This document shows, piece after piece, positions 3,321 through 34,041 of a stretch of DNA of 34,041 nt. Positions within the stretch are counted from its first letter, which is position 1, and each line of letters starts with the position of its first letter. A model generated the notes under the pieces. It saw only the letters and a list, made by a program, of their open reading frames with translations, did no database searches and was not told where the DNA came from. This DNA comes from Sphingobacteriia bacterium (lineage in GTDB: Bacteria > Bacteroidota > Bacteroidia > UBA7662): positions 1 through 34,041 of the forward strand of contig RFMW01000212.1 of assembly GCA_009927485.1 (NCBI GenBank), written 5' to 3'. The position numbers and the translations under genes were made by a program.

Positions 3321-4663
3321 ATGTCTGATAGTCAAGTTATTGAAAGGCTTCAAGCCTTTGAGCGGCAAGCTCCCGAAATTGTCTTTGAATGGAACGACGC
3401 AAGCACCGGAGCAAGGGGTTGGGCGGTCCTTAATTCCCTAAGAGGGGGAGCTGCAGGTGGCGGAACGCGGATGCGCATAGGATTGGACCGTCGGGAGGTA
3501 GAATCCCTGGCCAAAACCATGGAAATCAAATTTACCGTTTCGGGGCCGGCCATTGGCGGTGCCAAATCAGGAATCGACTTTGACCCATCCGACCCCCGCA
3601 AAGAAGAAGTCTTGAGGCGTTGGTACAAAGCCCTTGACCCGCTGCTCAAAAATTATTACGGCACCGGAGGAGATTTGAACGTGGATGAATTCACGAGGTT
3701 ATTCCCTATACCCTGGTTAACGACCTCCAACACCCCCAGCAAGGGGTTGTTCAGGGTCATTTTGGACGTTCGCTACGCGAAATGCGCATTGCCCAACTCA
3801 GGGAGGGGGTAAGCCTGCCGGTCCATGATCGTGAATTAAGCCCGTTGCATCCCATGGCCCCCCAGGGGACCTATACCGTGGCGGATTTGATCACCGGGTG
3901 GGGGGTGGCGGAGTCCATACTTTCCTATTATGCCCACCGAGCAGGCGCAGTACTCCCCGCAGACAGCGAGGGGTCTTGGATTCTGCAGGGTCACCCGGCC
4001 TTCGAGGGCCGCAAGGTATTGATCCAAGGTTGGGGAAACGTCGCTGCAACCACTGCCTATTATTTGTGTTATGCAGGGATGCGGATACAGGGCATTTTGG
4101 ACCGGGATCACGGTTGGTTGGCCCCAAGCGGGGAGCCTATGGATTTGACCCAATGCCTGAGCATGCTTCAAGGCCGTTTAGGGAACGCCATGAACCCTGA
4201 CCAAAAAGGTGTTGAACCGCGTCATGCCATGGAAGCGCGATTTTGGCAACAAAAGGCCGATGTCTTTGTCCCGGCAGCCGCATCACGCTTGGTAACCCTT
4301 GACCAGATTAATTCGTTAATGGACCAAGGATTAGAACTCGTTGCCTCCGGGGCAAACGTGCCCTTTGCCGACCCTGAAATTTTCATGGGACCCATTTCCA
4401 AGGCCGTAGATGACCGCATCGCCTTGATTCCTGATTTTGTGGCGAATTGCGGAATGGCCAGAGTTTTTGGTTACCTAATGCAAGAAAATATACCGGTGAA
4501 TGCGCGGGCCATATTCAAAGATGTAGCAACCATTGTCCGTGATGCCGTTGGATCCTGCATGCCCGCGGCTCCTTCCCTTTCTTCGATAGGCGGGGTGACC
4601 GGTCTAAGCGTTCGTGCTTATGCCAAGGCTTTGGATCAACTCATGCCCTCTTTCAAATCCTGA
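3321..4663 (+). pseudogene. Glu/Leu/Phe/Val dehydrogenase, frame broken near 3687-3689
   Basis: ORF 3321-3812 carries GGAAGGGTRMR, GGAKSGIDFDP and GTGGDLNVDE. Reading the next frame from 3689 continues IHEVIPYTLVNDLQHPQQGVVQGHFGRSLREMRIAQL into ORF 3782-4663 (YTVADLITGWGVAESI; VLIQGWGNVAATTAYYL). Confidence 0.85.
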
Positions 4664-4673
4664 ACACAAGATC

Positions 4674-5780
4674 ATGCTTGCATTCCTTCATTCGCAGTCC
4701 TGGGCCGGCCAAACCTATTTCCAATGGCTCATGGCCTTGGGCCTGGTATTGGGGACGATTCTGCTGCGCAGGCCCCTGGCTAATTCGCTGAACTGGTTGT
4801 TTTACAGAGCCTTTAGCGAAAGAAACCTTGAGAAACGTAAACGATTTCATGACCTTACAGGCCAAAACTTGAGGCGTTTGTTGGTGCTGTTGGCTTTATA
4901 CATGGCTCTCAGCATTCTGAGCATACCCACGCATTTTCAATGGTTTGGGAAGCCCTACCGCCTTGCTTTTTATTTGGATATTCTCTTGCAATTGGGCTTG
5001 GTTTGGACCGCTTCCAAAATATTGTTACGAATTGCAGATTTTGTCGCGGGTGTTTGGCAGGACAAGAGCGAAATTAACAGCGATCCCGCCAGAGCCCAAT
5101 GGGTTCCGTACATCAAGGACGGCATCAAGGTCGCCGTTATTTTGTCAGCATTTCTCTTTGTCATCGGTATCGTATTCCAAGCCAATATCGCGGCCTTGGT
5201 GGGCGGTTTGGGGATAGGAGGACTTGCGGTGGCATTGGCCGCGCAGGAGAGTCTTGCCAACCTCTTGGGGTCCTTCACCATCTTCCTCGACAAACCCTTT
5301 ACGGTGGGGGATACCATTGAATTCAAGGGAATTACCGGAACGGTTGAACATGTGGGCTTTCGTTCAACCCGCATGAGGACCCTGGACAAAAGTTATGTTA
5401 CCGTGCCCAACAAGGCCTTGGTCACCGAGCCCCTGAACAACATCACGGAAAGCACCCATCGCAGGGCCGCCTTCAAGTTGGGTCTCGTTTACCAAACCAA
5501 GCCCGAAACCCTTCAAGCGATTATTCGGTCCATACGGGAAATTCTGGAAGCCAATCCCTTGATTGAAGAAAATCCTACCGTGACTTTTTTTGGCTATGGC
5601 GAAAGTTCCCTTGATCTTCAAATTATTTATTTGGTCAAAACATCGGATTATAACGAATACCTTCAGGTGAGAGAAATCGTGAATTTCGAGATTTATCGCA
5701 TTGTCGATGAGCATGAAACTGATTTTGCTTTCCCTACGCGCACCATGGTAACGGTCCACGAAGATGGGTCCAAAACTTAA
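4674..5780 (+). CDS. mechanosensitive ion channel, MscS family
   Basis: TM3/beta-domain signature ALVGGLGIGGLAVALAAQESLANLLGSFTIFLDKPFTVGDTIEF and the downstream VPNKALVTEPLNN motif. Start at MLAFLHSQ. Confidence 0.93.
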   Translation: MLAFLHSQSWAGQTYFQWLMALGLVLGTILLRRPLANSLNWLFYRAFSERNLEKRKRFHDLTGQNLRRLLVLLALYMALSILSIPTHFQWFGKPYRLAFYLDILLQLGLVWTASKILLRIADFVAGVWQDKSEINSDPARAQWVPYIKDGIKVAVILSAFLFVIGIVFQANIAALVGGLGIGGLAVALAAQESLANLLGSFTIFLDKPFTVGDTIEFKGITGTVEHVGFRSTRMRTLDKSYVTVPNKALVTEPLNNITESTHRRAAFKLGLVYQTKPETLQAIIRSIREILEANPLIEENPTVTFFGYGESSLDLQIIYLVKTSDYNEYLQVREIVNFEIYRIVDEHETDFAFPTRTMVTVHEDGSKT

Positions 5781-6254
5781 TTTCCAAAAGGTAAGCTGGG
5801 GGAGTGCCGCCTATGCCCTCACGGTGGCTCTTCGTTACGATATGTTACGGGAGCCTCTGGGTTTGCATTTTAACTTGAACGATTTGGATTACGAACAGGA
5901 CTCGGTGCACTGGGCGGGATTTAGCGAAGAAGGCGAGGTCTTGGCCTGTTTGGTCCTGCGGCCTGCCTCCACGACTTCGGTTCTTCCCGAGGGCTATTCC
6001 ATGGAAGAAGCCTACCAAATGCGCCAAGTGGCCGTTAAACCCAGCTACCAAGGCCTCGGATTGGGCCGCGCATTGGTCCTTCATTCCCAAAATTGGCTTC
6101 GTGATCAGTCAAGGCCCGCCTTGTTTTTTTGCATAGCAGGCCCCAAGCCGTGGGTTTTTACCAAAGGCTGGGTTACCAGGCCTATCACGAACCTGTCATG
6201 GAAGTGGGGCTTCTGCATTCCAGGATGTTCATGGATCTCCAATCCCCCGTCTAA
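5764..6254 (+). pseudogene. GNAT family N-acetyltransferase, frame broken at a T7 tract (6124-6130)
   Basis: MRQVAVKPSYQGLGLGRALVLHSQ acetyl-CoA motif. After the T7 tract the -1 frame restores HSRPQAVGFYQRLGYQAYHEPVMEVGLLHSRMFMDLQSPV* (stop 6252-6254), a normal GNAT C-terminus. Confidence 0.82.
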
Positions 6255-6260
6255 ATCCCA

Positions 6261-7016
6261 ATGAACGCAATCGCCCTTATCCCTGCGCGTTTGGAGTCTT
6301 CCCGTCTCTCCCGCAAAATGCTTGCCGACCTGGGCGGGAAGCCCTTGGTCGTTCGCACCCTGGAGGCGGTTCGTCGCGCTTCGTGTTTGGATGATGTCAT
6401 CGTTGTTACGGATTCCACGGAAATACTGGAGGTCGTCCAAGACCACGGGGGGTCGGCGGTTCTTTCGTCTCCCAATCACTGCAGCGGAAGCGATCGCCTG
6501 GCCGAAGCCTTGCAATCCCTTTCCCTAAGCAACCGTTACGATGTGGTGATCAATGTTCAGGGTGATGAGCCCCTGGTCCCGGCCTCGGCTTTGGATGGTT
6601 TGGTGGCCTTGTTCCAAGACCCTGCGGTTCAGGTGGCTTCGGCTTGTTGCCCATGGCCCGAAAACGAAAATGCCCACAACCCTGATCGAGTCAAGGTGGT
6701 CCTGGACGCCCAAGACCGTGCCCTCTATTTTTCGAGGGCGGCCATTCCGGTCCAACGCTCGGATTCCGACCGACCCGCCGAGCGATTCCTGCATGCGGGC
6801 CTCTATGCCTATCGACCTGCCCGGCTTTTGGAATTTACACACCTGAAGCCGGCCCCTTCCGAAGAATCCGAAAAACTGGAGCAATTGCGCTTTTTGCACC
6901 ATGGGATTCCGATCCACATGCTCCGACTGAACGAGCCTCTGCCATCGGGGGTGGATAATCCCGATGACCTCGAACGAGTGCGTGCTCTTTACGGAAGACC
7001 CAGCTCTTTGCGCTGA
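6261..7016 (+). CDS. kdsB: 3-deoxy-manno-octulosonate cytidylyltransferase
   Basis: [58 protein letters not shown]. Confidence 0.96.
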
Positions 7017-16491: not shown

Positions 16492-18699
16492 TTATGGGCA
16501 ATTAACTCCTCCGTTACAGAATGGGGTGCTTGGAATTACGTCTGCAACTTCGTCAGCGTATTCACAGTTACCAGGAGTTGCCGTATCCCACTTGATTGCG
16601 GTATTACCCGGAGCAGTAACCACAAACCTTACATTGAACAACAATCCGTTGATTGTAACCGGAGTAAGATTAAACCAGGCTGCACGGAATTGGCGTCTGG
16701 TGCTGCTGGTATAGGGTGGGTTGGCATTCAAGTTCTGAAACAAACCGCAATTGCTTAGGAATCCAGCAGAAATAGCAGGGTTAAGACTGGTCACCGCCGA
16801 AATACAACGCAGTTTCGTGCTATCGTAATCCATAGCCAGTGAAATGGCAGCTGTAGGAATTGAACCCATGGTTATGGTTACAGGGACTACGATGGTGTCA
16901 CCCACGTTACAAGAGCTGCTCAAAACAGGAATGGTTGTCACGACATTGGTACCAGTGCCTACGCATGATGCGGTAATAGGGGGAGTGCCACAGGAGGTCG
17001 TGCTAAAAGATTCTTGTGATCCATAGGCTGTCCCTACGCTATTGGTTGCATAAGCGCGCACATTGTACGTTGTGCTGGCGCTTAGTCCGGTGAGGTTGCT
17101 GGTGAAAGATCCAGTCCCTGTACCACCAGATACTGTGCTATTGGCCGTAGTTGGGTTCGCCACTGTACCATAAGCAATACCTCTTGCACTAACCGCCGCA
17201 CCTCCATCGCTGGTCACGTTACCACCTGATGTTGCAGTCGCACAAGTCACTGAGCTGGCAGCAGTGGTGGAAACCGAAGCAAGCGTCGCGGGAGGCGCAG
17301 AAGTTGTGAACGACACATTGCTACCGTAAGAAGTTCCCACTGAATTGGTTGCATAGGCACGTACATTGTAGGTTGTGCTGGCTGAAAGACCGGTAATGTT
17401 GCTGGTGAAGGCTCCAGTACCCGTTCCACCGGAAACAGTGGTATTAGCAGTTGTTGGATTGGCTGCCGTACCATAGGCAACACCGCGAGCGGTAACCGAA
17501 GCATTTCCATCGCTGGTTACATTGCCCCCACTCACTGCGGAAGACGAGGTAATGGAACTGATGGCGGTGGTGGTCACGGTTGGGGCAACTTGTTGTACTG
17601 CCGTGGTAAATGTTAATTCATTACCATAAGCCGTGCCTGCGCTGTTGGTAGCATAAGCACGAACAAAATAAGCCGTTGAGGCACTAAGTCCTGTGATGCT
17701 GGAGGTAAAAGCACCCGTTCCAGTGCCGTTGCTAGTCACCGTTCCGGATACTGTAGGATTGGCTGAGGTTCCGTAAGCGACACCACGTGCGGTGACCGAA
17801 GCACCACCATCGTTGGTAATGTTCCCGCCCGATGAGGCGGTGCTGGCCGTAATTCCAGTTACAGCTGTGGTCGTTAAAGTGGCCGTACATGGGTTAAATT
17901 GAAGCGTGCCGTTGCACACAAACAATGAGGCCGGGCCGTTAGGAGTTCCTGAAGGAATCGTTACACCACCAGCAGGACCAGCAGGACCTTGAGGGCCAGC
18001 AGGACCTTGAGCACCGGCGGGGCCTTGAGGACCAGCAGGACCTTGAGCGCCTTGAGCACCGGCGGGGCCTTGTGGGCCAGCAGGGCCTTGGGCACCAGGG
18101 GCACCGTCGTTACCGGCAGGACCTTGTGGACCGGCAGGACCTTGTGGACCGGCAGGACCTTGGGCACCGGGAGCACCGGGAGCACCTTGTGAGCCGGCAG
18201 GACCGGCAGGGCCTTGGGCGCCAGGAGTACCGTTATTACCGGCAGGGCCTTGGGGTCCAGCGGGTCCAGCAGGACCTTGTGGGCCAGGGTTTTTGGCGTA
18301 CAACGCAAACGGAACGCTTAACAATTGGGATGTGCTGGAAATACCGTAGTTGGTACCGCCCGTTAAATCGGCTTCAACTTTCAGGTAAAAAGCAGCGCTA
18401 CCCCAATTTATCCCGGCAAAAGTGCCAGATTGAGCGACCCCTCCACCAATCTCGATGCTCATCAAGCCGTTGGCATTGGTGGTTGCACTATGCCTTTCCA
18501 CATAAACAGCAGAACCGCTTGCAGAACCCGACAAAACGGATACTTTAACGCCAATGCTTTGGTTGGATAGCAATTGTCCGCTGGCGCCACGCATCACCGC
18601 TTGGTGGGTGAAGCGCTCAGGAACCTGAGCAAAAACTTGAGATGCCACCATCAGCATCATCAACATTTGCATGACAAGGATTTGTAAGCCTTTTTTCAT
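16492..18699 (-). CDS. secreted collagen-like repeat protein with three FN3-like repeats and a C-terminal cohesin-like domain
   Basis: Signal peptide [26 protein letters not shown]-terminal domain [25 protein letters not shown]; 35 uninterrupted Gly-X-Y triplets; three ~100-aa repeats ending GLSAST.[10 protein letters not shown].GT.YG; C-terminal Cys-rich [34 protein letters not shown]. Confidence 0.85.
16990..17874 (-). repeat. three tandem ~300-bp FN3-like coding repeats
   Basis: Repeat units begin near 17874, 17574 and 17271 (100-101 codons apart); units share long near-identical nucleotide stretches. Confidence 0.88.
17971..18285 (-). repeat. collagen-like GXY-coding repeat, 35 triplets
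   Basis: Counted from translation [12 protein letters not shown]...GPAGPA; nucleotide pattern of ccagcaggaccttg(a/g/t)g(g/c)(g/a)cc-type 9-18 bp units. Confidence 0.95.
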
Positions 18700-18745: not shown

Positions 18746-20119
18746 TTATTTGATTTTGTTGAATTTGAGGCGAGTAGAGAACTCTTGGTTGCTGCTTACA
18801 AAATTGAGAGCAACGTGATATTGTCCCTCTGCCCATGCGTTGCTTTCTAGGTCGATTTCTTGGTTGCCGCTTGAGGCAATGAAATAGGTGGCTTGATTCA
18901 CAATTCGGCCGCTCAAATCGGTAACAGTCACAGACAAATCACCGGGGAAAGGAAGGCGTACCGATAAGAAGGCGTTTGCATTGGTTGGATTGGGATAAAC
19001 CACCGCCTGCCATGATGAAGAATTGTTACGATTCTGCAACCTTGGCGCAGATAGCATGAAATCTCCGTAGGATACAGCCCAAGCATCGGCCAATTCGCTG
19101 TATTTGCCCATGGACAATTCTCCTTCGCCATTTCCTGATAATTGAAGGAACAACAAAGGCTCGCCGTCACGGACCTGGAATGGCTCAAGAGAATACCACC
19201 CCATGCGCAGTTGGCGGCCTTCTTGTTTGTAAATCAAATCGGCGTTTGAAGCTTCGCCACCCATCCGAATGCCTTGAACACTAAGCCCTTCTGGGATTTC
19301 TAAATCAAGACTCACAGCGCCTAAGTCATAAGAACCCTGTGCATAGACTGGCCATTCGATAATACCGTTGGAGGCCTGAAGTGTACCTTTGGGATCGAGG
19401 TTGATCCATTGTTGACGAAGATTAATGTCCGGGGTATAGGTTCCGTTTACATCACCATATACGAGGGCAAGATTGCTTTCTTGCAATTCTTGGCCGCTAT
19501 TGATTTGTTTGCTGCTTGGCAAATCATAGGCCCAGTCTCCTACCGAAAAACTGTTATCCGAGCCTACATAGCGACGGTGCACCAACAATGCGTCTGTTCC
19601 GTTGATAATATTGGTACCATTGACATCGCCAGCCCGAAAATTAATTCCTGTCAGGGTGGTCATTACGTTAAAATGCCTCTTCATGATGAGAGCATCGCTG
19701 GAGTTTACGGCACCCAAACCTCCCCAAGGCTTGTTGGTGGTAGCTGTCATCTGATAAATCCCTTGGGGGATACCGCTGAATAAATAGGCCCCGTTGGCGT
19801 CGGTTCTGGCGGTGTCCACCAATTGCCCGTTGGCAAGGAGGTTAATGCGGGTGTTGGTCATTGGGGTTCTGGCCGTATTGGCATAACGCAACAGGCCCGC
19901 CAAACGCGCCCCATATATTTCTACAGGGATTTGCACACCATAAGAAACTCGACCTGCAGAAACGCTGGTTTGTTCCACCGAAAGCTGGGCATTGCTGAAG
20001 CTCATGGAGCCGTAACCTGCAATGGTCACATCTCCTCCGCTCGACAAAATAGCTGATTGGGCTAAAGCCTGAACAGATAAAACCGCAAAAAAGAGCGTAG
20101 AATATAGGGTTTTCCTCAT
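18746..20119 (-). CDS. secreted T9SS type A sorting-domain protein with dockerin-like and cohesin-like modules
   Basis: Signal peptide MRKTLYSTLFFAVLSVQALAQ; prealbumin/CNA-B-like LAGLLRYANTARTPMTNTRINLLANG; dockerin-like VNSSDALIMKRHF...GDVNGTNIINGTDALLVHRRYVG; C-terminal VVYPNPTNANAFLSVRL...GRI...LKFNKIK sorting domain. TATATTTG at 20139-20146 (minus) supports the 20119 start. Confidence 0.85.
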   Translation of the reverse strand: MRKTLYSTLFFAVLSVQALAQSAILSSGGDVTIAGYGSMSFSNAQLSVEQTSVSAGRVSYGVQIPVEIYGARLAGLLRYANTARTPMTNTRINLLANGQLVDTARTDANGAYLFSGIPQGIYQMTATTNKPWGGLGAVNSSDALIMKRHFNVMTTLTGINFRAGDVNGTNIINGTDALLVHRRYVGSDNSFSVGDWAYDLPSSKQINSGQELQESNLALVYGDVNGTYTPDINLRQQWINLDPKGTLQASNGIIEWPVYAQGSYDLGAVSLDLEIPEGLSVQGIRMGGEASNADLIYKQEGRQLRMGWYSLEPFQVRDGEPLLFLQLSGNGEGELSMGKYSELADAWAVSYGDFMLSAPRLQNRNNSSSWQAVVYPNPTNANAFLSVRLPFPGDLSVTVTDLSGRIVNQATYFIASSGNQEIDLESNAWAEGQYHVALNFVSSNQEFSTRLKFNKIK

Positions 20120-20183
20120 GACGTAGGGTTTATCAGACCAAATATAAATATTTCTATTCGAAAATCCACACGATTTCCACATT

Positions 20184-26489: not shown

Positions 26490-29114
26490 TCAACCTCGGG
26501 TATAAACCCTCTGAACGCGATCCGAAATGGAGGTTAAAATTTCATACGGGATGGTATCGCAGGTTTTGGCCCATTCCTCGATGGTGCCGGGCTCCCCAAA
26601 AAGACAAACCTCATCCCCAATTTCAACGTCCATATCCCCCAAATACACCAAACAAAAATCCATGCTAATTCGGCCAATGGTTGGAACGGGCCTGCCTTTG
26701 CATTTCATGGTGATTTTGCCCAAGCCCAGGGCTCTTCGCAAACCATCCGCATAACCTACGGGCAGAACACCAACTTGGCCATCTTGGGGCATGCAACCCT
26801 CGTTGCCGTAGCCAATACGATCGCCTTTGCGCAGCCAATGGATTTGAGAAATCACGGTTTTGAATTTGGTCAAGGGCTTAAGTTGCGCCTGTAGAATGCC
26901 TGTGGGCTCAAGCCCATACAGTCCAAGTCCCAAGCGAACCATGTCGCCTTGAAAATCCGGAAAACGAAGAATCCCCGCCGTATTCAAAGCATGAATCAAA
27001 GGCCTGTAACCGATTTGTTTTTGGAACCTATCGGCAAAGGATTGTAATTCCAACCATTGCCGCTGACTGTACGCGTCTTGGCTTCCGTCTTCGGCCGAAG
27101 TAAGGTGGGTGTAAATGCTGCGAACACGCAATCCACCGCCGGCAGTTTGGAGCAAATCCAGGGCCTTGGTGTGCTCAGAAAGCGAAATGCCCAAACGCCG
27201 CATACCCGTATCCAATTGCAAATGAACGCCTACGGGTTCACCATTCACGCCGGACCGTTCACGCCCAAGGGCTATCCAGTTTTGGATTTCCAAACAATCG
27301 TATAAATCCGGCTCCAAATTGGCCTTGAGCAAGGCTTCCGGATGAATATTACCGCTATTCATCACCATGATGGGCAAGCGGATACCTTCGTTGCGCAGTT
27401 CCAGGCCTTCTCCGGCATAGGCCACCGCGAGGTAATCAGCCCCCGCCTCTTCCATAGTCCTTGCAATTTCGATGCTTCCACTTCCATAAGCCCTTGCCTT
27501 GACCATGACCATCACGCGGACTCCAGGTTGAAGCGAGCTTTTGAAGAGACGATAATTATGCTTGGCGGCTTCCAAATCAATCTCCAAAACAGTTTGATAA
27601 CCCAACACCAGGAGGCGTTGTTCTACTCGCTCAAAAGCAAATTTTCGGGATCCTTTCACCAAGACCGTTAGACGGCGTAAATCATTCAAAGGCCAACGCT
27701 GCAACAGGTCTTCGGTGGATTCATAACGAAATACCTTGGTGGATTCGCTTTCTGAAAATTGGATAGCATCCCATAATTTGCCTACAAGAATTAAGGTATC
27801 CCACCCAAAAGAAACCAAAAGCTCCCTTAACTCCATGAGGGTTTGAATTGGGTCAATACGGGAGTTGGCCTTTGCGATATCGGGCTCGGATAACACAACA
27901 ACACCCTGATTGCCCCCACGTCGAGAGGACCATTCTTCCAGGGCCAATTTAAGGGAGTCTTTGTCCAGGCTGTAACTGTCGTTGATGAGTCGAGAAGATC
28001 CCGGTAATTCCCTTATTTCTAGACGCATAGGCAATGGGCGTAAGGAGGAAAATCGAGGGCCGATTTCGGGGCGCCATTCTCCGCCAGCCCAAAGCAATAA
28101 AGCGGCGCCCGTCATGTTCTCCAAAACCGCGCGGTGGCTGTTTGGGGATTCAAACTCAATGGTCTCCACTTGGTCCACGCCGAATAAGCGCAAAATCATA
28201 TGCTGGGGTCGGGCTTGTCCTGATTCTGCAACCCATAACATTATTTTTTGTGGATCAAGGCTCTTGGCCAATGCCTCTTCTTTCCAAGCAAGCCAACGGT
28301 CTCTTAGGTTTTCTGTGTCTTGAAATTCCCAAAAAACAAACCTGGTCGATTTGTTTTTTTCCATGTATTCCCGCCAAACTTCAGGGAACCTTAGGACGAC
28401 TTCAAGCCTCGCAACAAGGGTATGGGAATGAACAAAGACTTTTAATTTTTCGCGAAGTTTCTGCGCTTCATCCTCAAAACCTTCGCGGTGTGCCGCGCCA
28501 AAGTGAACCAGCAAGCCCAAATCAGGTTGAAGAATCTGGGCGAGGTTTTCCATTTCTCCTGATTTGGAAATACCGGCCTCCATAACAGCCCAGGGGTGAC
28601 GCTCTTGCAGGCCCAAAACAGACAGAGGAACGCCCAATTGAGAATTGAAACTACCCGGTGTTTTGCCGGGAATTACCCAATCAGCAACAAGATCGGTCAG
28701 CCATTCCTTGACCTGCGTTTTGCCGTTAGAGCCCGTGATGGCCCATACAGGGCGACCCCATTGCCTACGGTGCTCTGCGGCAATGGTTTGCAATGCTGTT
28801 AACACTTTGGGCACCATAAGCACGCTTGCCCCGGCCAGCTTAATCATCTCCGGGGTTTGCTCCTGATCCACCACAAAATTGCGAATACCCATGGTATAGG
28901 CCTGTTCAAGGTATTGATGACCATTACGGGCATTGGAACCCTGCCCGCTCAGTGCCAAAAAGACTGCTTTTCCCGGGGAGGCACAACGCCTAGTATCGTA
29001 AACCCACTCCTCGATGGGGATATTTAGACTCGCTTCCTTGTTCAGCCACCTGGAATTGGGGCAAACAGCAGCGACCCGCTCCAAGGTCCATATCAATTCC
29101 TCCCCTTTATTCAT
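26490..29114 (-). CDS. bifunctional UDP-MurNAc-tripeptide:D-Ala-D-Ala ligase / alanine racemase (MurF-Alr fusion)
   Basis: N-terminal Mur ligase (WAITGSNGKTQVKEWL, AVMEAGISKSGEM) and C-terminal racemase (VMVMVKARAYGSGSIEIA, HLQLDTGMRRLG, VGYADGLRR, GRISMDFCLV). Start at MNKGEEL. Confidence 0.94.
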   Translation of the reverse strand: MNKGEELIWTLERVAAVCPNSRWLNKEASLNIPIEEWVYDTRRCASPGKAVFLALSGQGSNARNGHQYLEQAYTMGIRNFVVDQEQTPEMIKLAGASVLMVPKVLTALQTIAAEHRRQWGRPVWAITGSNGKTQVKEWLTDLVADWVIPGKTPGSFNSQLGVPLSVLGLQERHPWAVMEAGISKSGEMENLAQILQPDLGLLVHFGAAHREGFEDEAQKLREKLKVFVHSHTLVARLEVVLRFPEVWREYMEKNKSTRFVFWEFQDTENLRDRWLAWKEEALAKSLDPQKIMLWVAESGQARPQHMILRLFGVDQVETIEFESPNSHRAVLENMTGAALLLWAGGEWRPEIGPRFSSLRPLPMRLEIRELPGSSRLINDSYSLDKDSLKLALEEWSSRRGGNQGVVVLSEPDIAKANSRIDPIQTLMELRELLVSFGWDTLILVGKLWDAIQFSESESTKVFRYESTEDLLQRWPLNDLRRLTVLVKGSRKFAFERVEQRLLVLGYQTVLEIDLEAAKHNYRLFKSSLQPGVRVMVMVKARAYGSGSIEIARTMEEAGADYLAVAYAGEGLELRNEGIRLPIMVMNSGNIHPEALLKANLEPDLYDCLEIQNWIALGRERSGVNGEPVGVHLQLDTGMRRLGISLSEHTKALDLLQTAGGGLRVRSIYTHLTSAEDGSQDAYSQRQWLELQSFADRFQKQIGYRPLIHALNTAGILRFPDFQGDMVRLGLGLYGLEPTGILQAQLKPLTKFKTVISQIHWLRKGDRIGYGNEGCMPQDGQVGVLPVGYADGLRRALGLGKITMKCKGRPVPTIGRISMDFCLVYLGDMDVEIGDEVCLFGEPGTIEEWAKTCDTIPYEILTSISDRVQRVYTRG

Positions 29115-29165
29115 GGTACGCGCAAAAATACCGAAATTTGAAGCCCCTTGAACGAAGGAGGCCTC

Positions 29166-29668
29166 TTGAACGAAGAATACCACAAACCCCTTGGGCCTAA
29201 GCCCGATAAACCCCAAACCGTGCTTGCGCGGTTGATGCGCTATTGCTCGCGGCGCGAATGTTGTTCTGGACAAATGATCCTTCGCTTAGAAAAAACCACC
29301 CTTGGTGAAGACGAACAATTGGAAATTTTAAACAGGCTTGTTCGGGATCGTTTTGTGGATGACGATCGATTTGCGGCCATTTATTGCCGGGACAAAGCCC
29401 TCCATGCACGATGGGGTTGGATCAAAATCCGACAGCATCTTAAACGGTGGAAGCTGGATCATGCCCTACCCACAGCGCACAGGGTATGGATGGAGCTGAA
29501 CCCCAACAACGACGGTCTTGCGGCCCTATCGGCCAGCAAATGGAAGCAATTGCCCGACAACCTGCCCGTTAACAAACGCTGCGCCCGCTTGTCTCGCTTT
29601 CTTTGAGCAGGGGTTACCCAATGCATGATGTAATCGAGGCCGTTCGCCCCTATTTTGGCAAGGTATGA
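29166..29668 (+). pseudogene. recX: RecX-like regulatory protein, frame broken in last ~20 codons
   Basis: LMRYCSRRECCSGQMILRL, RFVDDDRFAAIYCRDKALHARWGWIKIRQHLKRW, SKWKQLPDNLPVNKRCARLSRFL; skipping t29604 and t29626 restores EQGLPNADVIEAVRPYFGKV* ending at 29668. Start TTG (29148 or 29166) uncertain. Confidence 0.75.
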
Positions 29669-30660
29669 GCAGTGCATCCATGACCGGTTTTGGGCGTTCC
29701 ACTTTTGAGTGGGGGCAGATTGAATACCGTATAGAAATCAAGTCCTTGAATGGAAAATCGTTGGACCTCCAAATCAAGGCCACCGAGCCTTGGGCTGTTC
29801 TGGACAATGTCGCTTACAAGGTCCTGCAACAACGTTTGCTAAGGGGTAAAATTTCGATGCAAGTTTGGGCGGCCCCCAGAGCTACTTCCCATTCGTCGAC
29901 GATCAACCATTCTGAGGAAAAACCCCCGTTGACCATCAACACCACGGTATTGAATGCGCTGATTCAACAATGGCGCGATTGGTCCGCAACCGAAAAAGTC
30001 AACAGCCAAGTCCCTTGGGTTGATGGGGCGCTTTGGGGTCGCCTGGTTGCCGCTCATCCCATGATTTATCAAAAGCCCTCCACAGAAGGGGCCGCTATCG
30101 CTTCAGTAGGCGCTCTCGATTTGCCCGATAACAACGAAGAAGCCGCAAGGGCCTACCTAACCGCTTTGGAGGCGGCCGTTCAAGATTGCCTCGAACACCG
30201 TCTGGCGGAGGGTAAAGCCATCGCCGAGGCCCTGCTTCAATACCTCGAAGAAATACGTTCTAGCGCCGAGGCTATCCAACAAATTGACTCGCTCAAAGAG
30301 CCGTTAATCCGCAGGAAAATTGAAGAATTTTGGACTGAATGGAACGATCAACCTGAACGCGACGGGGTTCCGGCTCTTCGTCCTGACCCTCTTCGTTTGG
30401 AGCAAGAGCTTCTTTATTACCTCGAAAAGAAAGATATTGCCGAAGAATTAGTTCGCTTAAAGCAACACCTGTCCTTTGCGCTGGAAATTCTGGGTAACCC
30501 CGGAGAACAAGGAAGAAAGCTTGGTTTTGTCGCCCAAGAAATTGGCAGGGAATTGAATACCATAGGATCCAAGGTTTCGGATTTTGAAATACAAAGGCTT
30601 ATTGTGTTATCCAAAGAGGTCCTTGAAAAAATTAAAGAGCAATCGCTTAATCTTTTGTAA
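29665..30660 (+). CDS. YicC family protein (putative endoribonuclease)
   Basis: SMTGFGRSTFEWGQIEYRIEIKSLNGKSLDLQIK and C-terminal GRKLGFVAQEIGRELNTIGSKVSDFEIQRLIVLSKEVLEKIKEQSLNL. Confidence 0.95.
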   Translation: MSSASMTGFGRSTFEWGQIEYRIEIKSLNGKSLDLQIKATEPWAVLDNVAYKVLQQRLLRGKISMQVWAAPRATSHSSTINHSEEKPPLTINTTVLNALIQQWRDWSATEKVNSQVPWVDGALWGRLVAAHPMIYQKPSTEGAAIASVGALDLPDNNEEAARAYLTALEAAVQDCLEHRLAEGKAIAEALLQYLEEIRSSAEAIQQIDSLKEPLIRRKIEEFWTEWNDQPERDGVPALRPDPLRLEQELLYYLEKKDIAEELVRLKQHLSFALEILGNPGEQGRKLGFVAQEIGRELNTIGSKVSDFEIQRLIVLSKEVLEKIKEQSLNLL

Positions 30661-30665
30661 TTTTT

Positions 30666-31235
30666 GTGAAAAAGATTTTTTTTGTTTTTTCTGCGCCCAG
30701 CGGAGCCGGCAAAACCACCCTGGTTCGCTATTTGTTGAAGCGCTTTCCTTCTTTCAGGTTTTCGGTTTCTTATACCAGCAGGCCTCTTCGGGGGCAAGAG
30801 GTGAATGGTGTTGATTATCATTTTGTGAAGGCGGAAGAGTTCCGCGATTTGATCCAAAAAGATTTTTTTGTGGAGTGGGAAGAGGTTTACCCTGACCATT
30901 TTTACGGAACCCCTAAGCAAACGGTTCTTGAATGCATGGCGTCCAACACCGTGCTTTTGTTGGATTTGGATGTTCAAGGCGGCTTGGAATTCAAGAAAAA
31001 ATTTCCTTCTCAAACCTTAGCAATTTTTGTGGGGGTTTCGAGTTTAGCTGTTTTGGAGGAGCGTCTTCGCAAGAGGGGTACCGACAGCGATTCCAAAATT
31101 CAAACCCGCCTTGCCAAAGCGGCCCTGGAAACTCAAAGCGCCCCTGAATTTGATGCCCTCCTAATCAACGATGATTTGGAAAAGGCTTCGGAAGAACTTC
31201 TGCAGATTATGGCGAATAGCGGTTACCATCCTTAA
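30666..31235 (+). CDS. gmk: guanylate kinase
   Basis: FVFSAPSGAGKTTLVRYLLKRFPSFRFSVSYTSRPLRGQEVNGVDYHF. Confidence 0.96.
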   Translation: MKKIFFVFSAPSGAGKTTLVRYLLKRFPSFRFSVSYTSRPLRGQEVNGVDYHFVKAEEFRDLIQKDFFVEWEEVYPDHFYGTPKQTVLECMASNTVLLLDLDVQGGLEFKKKFPSQTLAIFVGVSSLAVLEERLRKRGTDSDSKIQTRLAKAALETQSAPEFDALLINDDLEKASEELLQIMANSGYHP

Positions 31236-31253
31236 TTTTTCCTTGTTTTTTTC

Positions 31254-31850
31254 ATGAAATACACGGGTCTATTTTTAGGTTCTTTCAATCCTGTTCATCA
31301 AGGGCATTTGATCCTTGCAGAGACTTTTGCTTCTTTGGAGGATATGAAGGAGGTTTGGTTGGTTGTAAGCCCACAAAATCCTTTTAAATCGAACGAAAAA
31401 TTATTGGATTTCGAAACCCGTGTTCGTTGGGTTCAAGAAGCAATTCAAGACAATCCAAAACTTCGAGTAAGCAGCATCGAAAAAGAACTCTCTGTACCCT
31501 CGTATACCATCCACACCCTTGAAGCGCTAAGAGAATCTTATCCTGAACGCGATTTTGTTTTGCTGCTTGGCGAGGATCAGTTGGCTGGTTTTCATGGTTG
31601 GCATCGTTACCAAGAAATTCTCTCTCTCGTTCCCTTATGGGTTTATCCGCGTCACCATACGAATTCTCCGCATCAACATACAAATTCTCCCCATCAAGTA
31701 GAATTTCCTTACCGTTTATTGGAAGCGCCCAAAATTGAGATTTCATCGACCTATGTCCGCGAACGAATACGTTCAGGACTTTCCGTTCGCTATTTACTGC
31801 CTGAAGCCATATGGATAAGTTGTTCAAAACACCCTTTCTGGTGTGGATAA
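31254..31850 (+). CDS. nadD: nicotinate-nucleotide adenylyltransferase
   Basis: GLFLGSFNPVHQGHLILAE, VVSPQNPFK, LLGEDQLAGFHGWHRYQEIL, IEISSTYVRERIRSGLSVRYLLPEAIW. Confidence 0.95.
   Translation: MKYTGLFLGSFNPVHQGHLILAETFASLEDMKEVWLVVSPQNPFKSNEKLLDFETRVRWVQEAIQDNPKLRVSSIEKELSVPSYTIHTLEALRESYPERDFVLLLGEDQLAGFHGWHRYQEILSLVPLWVYPRHHTNSPHQHTNSPHQVEFPYRLLEAPKIEISSTYVRERIRSGLSVRYLLPEAIWISCSKHPFWCG
31656..31697 (+). repeat. in-frame 21-bp tandem duplication inside nadD (HTNSPHQ x2)
   Basis: catacgaattctccgcatcaa / catacaaattctccccatcaa, 19/21 identical. Confidence 0.95.
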
Positions 31851-32140
31851 GCAGCTCTTCCTTGGGTATAGAGGGTTTACAATTCAAAAGTCAAAATTGA
31901 ATCCCTTGGATTTTTGCACAGCAATTTTAGAAAATTGAAAAGTTATAATTGTCCTGTTTCTTATACACTTTTCCACATAGAATTTATATATCTTAATCTG
32001 GAACTCATTTAAGAAGATTTTATTGAAATTATAGTGGAAAAGCTGGTGGATAAATCTGTGGTAAGTCTTTTTCCACCTTTCCACAGCGCTAACAAACAAA
32101 AACAAAAAATAAATAGTTTAATTTTTAAAATACTTGTTCA
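31810..32140. other. candidate oriC: DnaA-box-like cluster plus AT-rich stretch
   Basis: TTWTNCACA exact matches at 31842-31850 (-), 31912-31920 (+), 31969-31977 (+); one-mismatch matches at 31810-31818 (-), 31961-31969 (+), 32033-32041 (-), 32045-32053 (-), 32069-32077 (+), 32077-32085 (+); A/T-rich run 32090-32135. Confidence 0.6.
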
Positions 32141-32148
32141 AAGCTCTT

Positions 32149-32181
32149 CTTGATTCCCTTAGCGTCTTAAGGCTACCTTTG
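32149..32181 (+). promoter_or_regulatory. Bacteroidota-type promoter upstream of the aminotransferase
   Basis: CTTG (32149-32152), 21-nt spacer, TACCTTTG (32174-32181). Confidence 0.55.
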
Positions 32182-32200
32182 GTTTTCACTTTCTCCTAGC

Positions 32201-33379
32201 ATGATGGCCCTGAAGCAAAGCATTTTTTCGCACATGAATGAGCTTGCTTTGTTGCACAACGCAGTGAATCTTGGTCAGGGTTTTCCGGATCATGATCCAC
32301 CTCAAGGTTTAATCGATGCTGTGCATCGCTCTTTGGAAGATTCTGCTTTTCAATATTTTCCTTCTTCAGGTTATCCGGCATTGCGTGATCAAATTTCCGG
32401 GATGTTAGCCCAGGATGATTCCATTCAGGTGGATCCCATTTCTGAGATAACCGTTACTGCGGGTGCTACCCAAGGTTTAGCGGATGCAATACGTAGCTTG
32501 GTCGGTACCGGGGATGAAGTGATTTTGGTGGATCCTGCCTATGATTCTTATGCGCCAGTTATCCAATCAACTGGGGCCAAGCCTTGTCGAATTTCCATGC
32601 TATATGATGTTGATGATGGTTTTTCGATGGATTGGCAGCGAATTTCTGATTCGATTAGCAAATCCACCAAACTTCTTATTCTGAATAATCCGCATAACCC
32701 TAGCGGGTATTTAATGAACGGTTCCGATCACCATTATTTGGAGACTTTGATGGAAAAACATAGTCAACTTCACTTATTGGGGGACGAGGTTTATGCGCAT
32801 ATCGTATTTGAAGGTTCTTTTCGTAGTTTTTTGAAAATGAGTTCTTTCAGAGAAAGAATTTTGGTGGTTCATTCGTTTGGTAAAACTTACCATTGCACAG
32901 GGTGGAAATTGGGTTTTGTGGCCGGCTCTCCAACGTGGATGCAGAAATTTAGGAAGGCTCACGAATTTAATGTTTTTTGTGTTAATTCTTTGTTGCAAAA
33001 AGCTTTTGCTGATTTTCTTGCAACGGATCAATCGCGGCATGAAATTTCTTCCTTTTACTTGGAACAAAGAGATTACATGATGGATTGGATTCGTAAGGGC
33101 CCCTTACAAGCAATTCCTGTACAAAGCACTTATTTTCAATGGATTGATTATAGCCAATGGGCTAACCAAGGTGGTTACCTTGTTCAAGGAAATTCTGATT
33201 TGGAACAAGCCGAGATTTGGTGTCAAAAAGCAGGATTTACTGCTATACCTTTTACCCCTTTTGTGGATACCAATAGTGGATGGAATCACCGTTTAATGAG
33301 GCTTTGTTTCGCCAAGAGTAAGGACAAAATAAACCACGCCTTTCAGAATTTATACAGCGCTTTGGGTGTTCAATATTAG
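32201..33379 (+). CDS. PLP-dependent aminotransferase, class I/II (methionine/glutamine aminotransferase, YbdL-like)
   Basis: VNLGQGFPDHDPP, GATQGLADAI, LILNNPHNPSGYL, VHSFGKTYHCTGWKLGF (PLP lysine). Confidence 0.92.
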   Translation: MMALKQSIFSHMNELALLHNAVNLGQGFPDHDPPQGLIDAVHRSLEDSAFQYFPSSGYPALRDQISGMLAQDDSIQVDPISEITVTAGATQGLADAIRSLVGTGDEVILVDPAYDSYAPVIQSTGAKPCRISMLYDVDDGFSMDWQRISDSISKSTKLLILNNPHNPSGYLMNGSDHHYLETLMEKHSQLHLLGDEVYAHIVFEGSFRSFLKMSSFRERILVVHSFGKTYHCTGWKLGFVAGSPTWMQKFRKAHEFNVFCVNSLLQKAFADFLATDQSRHEISSFYLEQRDYMMDWIRKGPLQAIPVQSTYFQWIDYSQWANQGGYLVQGNSDLEQAEIWCQKAGFTAIPFTPFVDTNSGWNHRLMRLCFAKSKDKINHAFQNLYSALGVQY

Positions 33380-33385
33380 TACGTT

Positions 33386-34041
33386 ATGCGCTTTATTCTT
33401 TATCAAAACGCGGCCCAATGGGGTAATCCTGTTGCTTCTATACAGAACCTTGAAGAAGGATTGCTTTCATTGAAGGGCTCCTGGAAGAAAGGGGATGTTT
33501 TGGTTTTACCGGAAATGTTCAGCACGGGGTTCATCACCGAGGAATCGCTCTTGTCAGATAGAAATCAATTAATTGAAAATCAGGACTATACCCTTGGATG
33601 GATGCGGAAATTTGCCCAAGAAAACCTTGTCAGTGTGATGGGATCCATACCGTATTGGAATGGGGAACTTCTGTTTAATCGTCTCTTTGTGATTGATGAA
33701 GGAAACGCGGTTAGGCAGAAGGAGCTCTCACATTATAATAAGCGCCATCTCTTTGGTATCGCCGGGGAGAATCGCATGTACACAGCAGGCCAAGAGCGTG
33801 TAATTGTAGACAAAGGGGAGTTGCGTTTGAATATGAGTATTTGTTACGATTTGCGTTTCCCGGTATGGCTGCGTAATAGAGGCGATTACGATGTTTTGGT
33901 TTGTGTGGCGAATTGGCCTGTAGCAAGGTCCACCGCTTGGAGAGCTCTATTAATTGCCAGAGCCATCGAAAATCAATGCTATGTTCTTGGGGTTAATCGT
34001 GTAGGAATTGATGGTACCCAGACGCCGTACGGTGGTGGTTC
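33386..34041 (+). CDS. carbon-nitrogen hydrolase (omega-amidase, YafV/Nit2-like), truncated by window end
   Basis: Translated by eye from ATG 33386: DVLVLPEMFSTGF (Glu), HYNKRHLFGIAGE (Lys), NMSICYDLRFPVW (Cys); open at 34041, so absent from the ORF track. Confidence 0.88.
   Translation, partial: MRFILYQNAAQWGNPVASIQNLEEGLLSLKGSWKKGDVLVLPEMFSTGFITEESLLSDRNQLIENQDYTLGWMRKFAQENLVSVMGSIPYWNGELLFNRLFVIDEGNAVRQKELSHYNKRHLFGIAGENRMYTAGQERVIVDKGELRLNMSICYDLRFPVWLRNRGDYDVLVCVANWPVARSTAWRALLIARAIENQCYVLGVNRVGIDGTQTPYGGG

Follow-up and report, generated by a model that had tools for sequence, protein, structure and literature searches.

The window, the whole stretch of 34,041 nucleotides that was analyzed, is one entire contig (G000:C207) of a 1.94-Mb genome of a Sphingobacteriia bacterium, assembled in 251 contigs and estimated to be 97% complete. 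Bacteroidetes genomes from metagenomes are its nearest named relatives. At its right end lie yicC, gmk, nadD, a 350-bp gap and a gene for a PLP aminotransferase, in that order (Table 1). The gap is occupied by a cluster of DnaA boxes, which starts inside the final 41 bases of nadD and extends as far as 32085. A tRNA search of the window and an Rfam search of 28000-34041 gave no match. The initial annotation described the gap as a candidate origin without dnaA, and an intact dnaA was indeed found on another contig, G000:C245, as a 491-aa open frame (E 4e-64 to the Bac_DnaA family). Adjacency to dnaA, which is common for oriC but not required, is absent here.

Further to the left in the window, a Glu/Leu-dehydrogenase-like gene (3321-4663, plus strand) is split across overlapping ORFs (3321-3812 and 3782-4663), which suggests a frameshift or assembly error near 3780, and the C-terminal part of an acetyltransferase-like ORF (5764-6264, plus strand) seems to be out of frame, another possible frameshift. 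On the minus strand, a protein with a collagen-like G-x-x stretch (16492-18699) adjoins one with a type IX secretion sorting tail (18746-20182).

Table 1. Features of the nadD–aminotransferase region, in positions of the window.
Feature	Position	Strand	Basis or remark
nadD (nicotinate-nucleotide adenylyltransferase), left neighbor	31254..31850	+	TIGR00482, 167 bits vs. 112-bit cut-off
DnaA box, one mismatch (TTATCCATA), within nadD 3' end	31810..31818	-	same place in G001, G004
DnaA box, one mismatch (TTTTGAACA)	31821..31829	-	same place in G001, G004
Consensus DnaA box TTATCCACA	31842..31850	-	nadD stop codon inside box on + strand; kept in G001, G004
DnaA box, exact (TTTTGCACA)	31912..31920	+	motif scan
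Tandem box pair, 8-nt spacing (TTATACACT / TTTTCCACA)	31961..31977	+	motif scan
AT-rich middle stretch	31983..32032		window's least stable 50-bp segment
Two inverse boxes, 3 nt apart (TTTTCCACT, TTATCCACC)	32033..32053	-	arrangement also in G007
Tandem box pair, 8-nt spacing, adjoining unwinding element (TTTTCCACC / CTTTCCACA)	32069..32085	+	similar pair in relatives
GC-rich spacer GCG	32086..32088		GCC or CCC in most relatives
DnaA-trio-like motif, lower strand, from box 3'-GAT TGT TTG TTT-5'	32089..32100	-	trio definition from papers
AT-rich candidate duplex-unwinding element	32089..32139		composition and stability
PLP-dependent aminotransferase, right neighbor	32201..33379	+	closest model methionine aminotransferase PRK09082, below its cut-off

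Within 31810-32085, a span of 276 bp, there are three exact TTWTNCACA boxes, at 31842(-), 31912(+) and 31969(+), and seven boxes with one mismatch, at 31810(-), 31821(-), 31961(+), 32033(-), 32045(-), 32069(+) and 32077(+). The initial annotation had the three exact boxes right but counted only six with one mismatch; the two 17-nt tandem pairs it described, with 8-nt spacing and 14/17 identity, were correct in both respects. Dinucleotide shuffles of 31800-32150 (n = 3000) gave on average 0.084 exact boxes, or 1.57 boxes when up to one mismatch was allowed, and while three exact boxes occurred in a single shuffle, ten boxes occurred in none. The boxes of the gap are clustered beyond chance, as is characteristic of an oriC. 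The genome has 93 exact TTWTNCACA sites in total, and a second exact triple within 400 bp, sought in all 251 contigs, was found nowhere besides the nadD–aminotransferase gap. By such triples, the expectation that no stronger cluster exists elsewhere holds, uniqueness being judged here by exact sites alone; a one-mismatch scan with TTATCCACA gives 453 sites in this genome.

The right end is the most constant part of the cluster. In the window, this end module reads TTTTCCAC-CTTTCCACA-GCG-CTA-ACA-AAC..., and then passes into DNA of 18% G+C. The pattern common to the family of the window (f1) and its sister family (f2) consists of two boxes with 8-nt spacing, of which one is often weak, then three nucleotides rich in G+C, TTA or CTA (in two cases CCA), steps of ACA or ATA and finally an AT-rich run. 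Pairs similar to the last one of the window, again often with one weak box, are present in f1, f2, G054, G058, Terrimonas and G127. The AT-rich run first noted at 32090-32135 was borne out: 32100-32149 has 18% G+C in a window of 50% G+C and is among its three least stable 50-bp stretches. An easily melted element adjoining the boxes, another characteristic of oriC, is present at this locus. In 6/11 f1 genomes, the 50 bp of lowest stability in the region start directly after the end module, and in the other f1 genomes, the stretch after it is among the lowest 1% in stability.

Read 3' to 5' from the box, the trio-like repeat is GAT TGT TTG in the window, GAT TGT TGT TGT TAT in G011 and G013, and AAT TAT TAT in f2. 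The search rule for DnaA-trios calls for at least three 3'-NAN-5' trios after a box, and its authors suspect that there are also deviant trios without the middle adenine (PMC8287927). At least three trios with a middle A are present in f2 (AAT TAT TAT), Terrimonas and G127; the window falls short of this rule, since only the first trio of GAT TGT TTG TTT has one, and the irregularity of its own repeat counts against the reading as oriC. The basal unwinding system also has a box no more than 16 nt from the repeat and a GC-rich spacer, and the window has both, with a 3-nt spacer after the last box. Judged by its sequence, the end module has the layout of that system: boxes, a GC-rich spacer and putative trios on the opposite strand. 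A search of 242 genomes of the class for the end-module motif of genera g2 and g4, CACANNCCTAACAACAACAA, gave matches in three f1 genomes only, so the exact motif is family-specific. A looser motif, searched in the order, matched at the presumed origin of six genomes and twice at other sites, and did not match in the window.

The order yicC-gmk-nadD-cluster-aminotransferase is found in 11/11 f1 genomes examined, representing four genera, including that of the window. The aminotransferase follows the cluster directly or after one gene, and in genera g3 and g4 it comes after nadA. In three f2 genomes, the cluster lies immediately after nadD, with a consensus box directly following the gene, comparable to that at 31842..31850 in the window. 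The proposal that the boxes might be conserved together with nadD among relatives was confirmed in these eleven f1 and three f2 genomes, and a conserved position is a further mark of oriC. G018, from a third family of the order (f3), has no cluster after nadD and has one upstream of nadA instead. As a class-wide origin marker, nadD was considered and rejected; outside f1 and f2, the stretches around it are mostly without a box cluster. At locus L006 (G003:C64), from the same genus as the window, the contig ends at 18046, a few bases from the end of nadD, where the origin would start: an assembly break.

GC skew was followed on the window and on the contigs of relatives, not on the whole genome of the window. 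The switch that the initial annotation had left unmeasured is present in the window: cumulative GC skew is lowest at 30310, and the best-supported change-point is 32398. Since the contig continues for just 2 kb beyond the cluster, the signal in the window alone is weak (block-permutation P 0.03). On the contigs of six relatives, skew turns from negative to positive within 5.1 kb of the cluster, clearly so in five. The change-point is 2.2 kb from the cluster in G013 (533-kb contig), 3.3 kb in G010 (531 kb), 2.7 kb in G009, 2.4 kb in G011 and 5.1 kb in G017 (f2), with P <= 0.001 in each; in G015, the place agrees (3.2 kb) but the strength does not (P 0.42). Between 180 and 250 kb, the cumulative curve of G013 has almost no slope. 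The nadD cluster is also the top-scoring one on the stretches covered of G013, G010, G015, G009 and G017. The genomes tested are related and the tests therefore not independent, and part of the skew reflects the orientation of the genes, which changes near the cluster as well. The skew check suggested at the outset nonetheless came out in favor of an origin in the relatives with longer contigs, and G013, G010, G009, G011 and G017 have the switch at the locus that is expected of oriC.

The boxes and nadD synteny of the relatives, their skew switch and the unique exact triple support the initial proposal, and the nadD–aminotransferase gap is very probably the chromosomal oriC, with a probability of about 0.93. 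The initial annotation had left room for a DnaA-titration or regulatory site, one that binds DnaA without starting replication. The E. coli loci datA and DARS are of this DnaA-regulatory kind, box clusters that are not at the skew minimum. The window resembles them in having its boxes away from dnaA, and a titration site, too, would show up as a dense group of boxes outside dnaA. However, the cluster described here is not located away from the skew switch as a datA-like site would be, and a regulatory function would leave that switch in the relatives unexplained. It would also have to contend with the AT-rich element that adjoins a directional tandem pair, and with a genome that offers no other exact triple to serve as the true origin. 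Of the two alternatives, oriC was thus upheld, while a titration or regulatory site now appears very improbable.

Slightly less probable still is that the true oriC lies at another site, either close to dnaA or in a gap of the assembly, and that the cluster is a secondary or former origin. With the genome in 251 contigs, skew cannot be traced across it, but the dnaA contig C245, when scanned, had no box cluster comparable to that of the gap, and the long contigs of the relatives put the skew switch at the nadD cluster. Moreover, an oriC far from dnaA is common in Bacteroidetes, according to the report on Prevotella intermedia OMA14, whose own origin was predicted by skew and boxes (PMC4755523). 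Finally, a chance cluster, or promoter sequence of the aminotransferase gene, has a negligible probability: the gap is AT-rich and DNA of this kind often contains one-mismatch boxes, but the observed number of boxes was reached in 0/3000 shuffles, and the cluster is conserved at the same place in two families while the gene to its right varies between genera.

The gene that separates the cluster from the aminotransferase in g3 and g4 reads as nadA, encoding quinolinate synthase. In G059, a distant closed genome, the best cluster lies between a nadA-like gene and one that reads as nadB. When the NadA protein was searched in 60 relatives, none was found in the genus of the window, in g2 or in f2. 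At the nadA loci, 650 bp upstream was scored for boxes against 200 mononucleotide shuffles. The score exceeded all 200 in G018 (f3, locus L238), G058 (f41, L213), G059 (f42, L214), G054 (f37, L224), G041 (f24), G033 and G040, and likewise in Terrimonas pollutisoli (Terrimonas locus L260), Pedobacter yulinensis, two Mediterranea, two Bacteroides and several further genomes; a nadA-upstream cluster is also present at L294 (G127). Terrimonas and G127 share a closely similar end module, box-box-GCC-(G/T)TAATAGTAATAGG. The skew minimum lies 15 kb from the nadA cluster in G054 (300-kb stretch) and 9 kb from it in G059 (71-kb stretch), and in both the nadA cluster is the best-scoring of its stretch; thinly spaced samples farther along G059 showed no clear pattern of skew. 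The G058 locus is unusually dense, with 12 exact and 13 one-mismatch boxes in about 650 bp, and G130 and G096, from the same family, have similar arrays.

Not every genome of the class shows the link to nadA. Among those with no cluster upstream of nadA are G032, G056, G036, G027, G028, Saprospiraceae UBA2365 and Flavobacteriaceae M30B78, and the strict end-module pattern matched upstream of nadA at 5/37 loci. At locus L256 (G045:C34, around 117591), a strong cluster of boxes, with a score of 7.0, is located downstream of nadA and not upstream. From these gene neighborhoods, it looks as if the origin has long remained next to genes of NAD synthesis (nadA, nadD) in many families of the class. 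The origin of the window looks like an old nadA-linked class origin from which nadA has since been lost in its genus, leaving nadD and the aminotransferase gene as its present flanks. Whether the class origin was ancestrally upstream of nadA and is still recognizable there in many families, with the family of the window having a deviant trio 3'-GAT-(TGT)n-5' that lacks the middle adenine, is a proposition on which we would lay even odds. A partial survey of the literature, with DoriC outside its scope, gave no report of oriC linked to nadD or nadA in Bacteroidetes.

Like the window, Prevotella intermedia OMA14 has its predicted oriC in a box cluster at a GC-skew switch, far from dnaA (PMC4755523). 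The locus of the window differs in lying beside nadD (nadA in relatives), while the passage on the OMA14 origin names neither flanking NAD genes nor a tandem-box/trio end. The end module resembles the oriC of Bacillus subtilis (DnaA-boxes 6/7 and trios), where tandem boxes also point toward a short GC-rich spacer, followed by a repeat beginning with 3'-GAT-5' (or AAT) and then by AT-rich DNA (PMC6669920, PMC8287927). Unlike the B. subtilis basal unwinding system, the cluster of the window is not beside dnaA, and in the window and several f1 genomes, the first trio is followed by 3'-TGT-5', with no middle adenine, whereas f2, Terrimonas and G127 keep the A. The TTGTT of the window is taken here to be an E. 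coli-type TT(A/G)T(T) motif. As in the unwinding elements of Thermotoga maritima and E. coli with their TTATT-type motifs, the putatively bound strand of the window has TTGTT/TTATT-like repeats leading to the spacer and box (PMC10316083).

If the locus works as an origin, DnaA-ATP supplied from the distant dnaA gene would occupy the boxes of 31810-32053 as well as the tandem pair at 32069-32085. Starting at this pair, a filament of DnaA would grow rightwards over the GCG spacer and onto the trio-like repeat of the lower strand at 32089-32100, opening the AT-rich run to about 32139. Helicases could then load at the opened run and start bidirectional replication.

The distance from dnaA is not new, because such distances are stated to be common in Bacteroidetes in the OMA14 report (PMC4755523); added interest may come from the position conserved with NAD-synthesis genes and from the possible deviant trios. 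With a contig of only 34 kb, the probable oriC of an uncultured lineage can be narrowed down to some 300 bp. With nadD to the left and nadA, unless lost, to the right, the arrangement offers a way to locate oriC in the fragmented genomes of this class, in which dnaA is no guide, and the location would anchor growth-rate estimates from read coverage. The natural TAT and TGT variants of the trio may serve for testing how DnaA reads single-stranded DNA.
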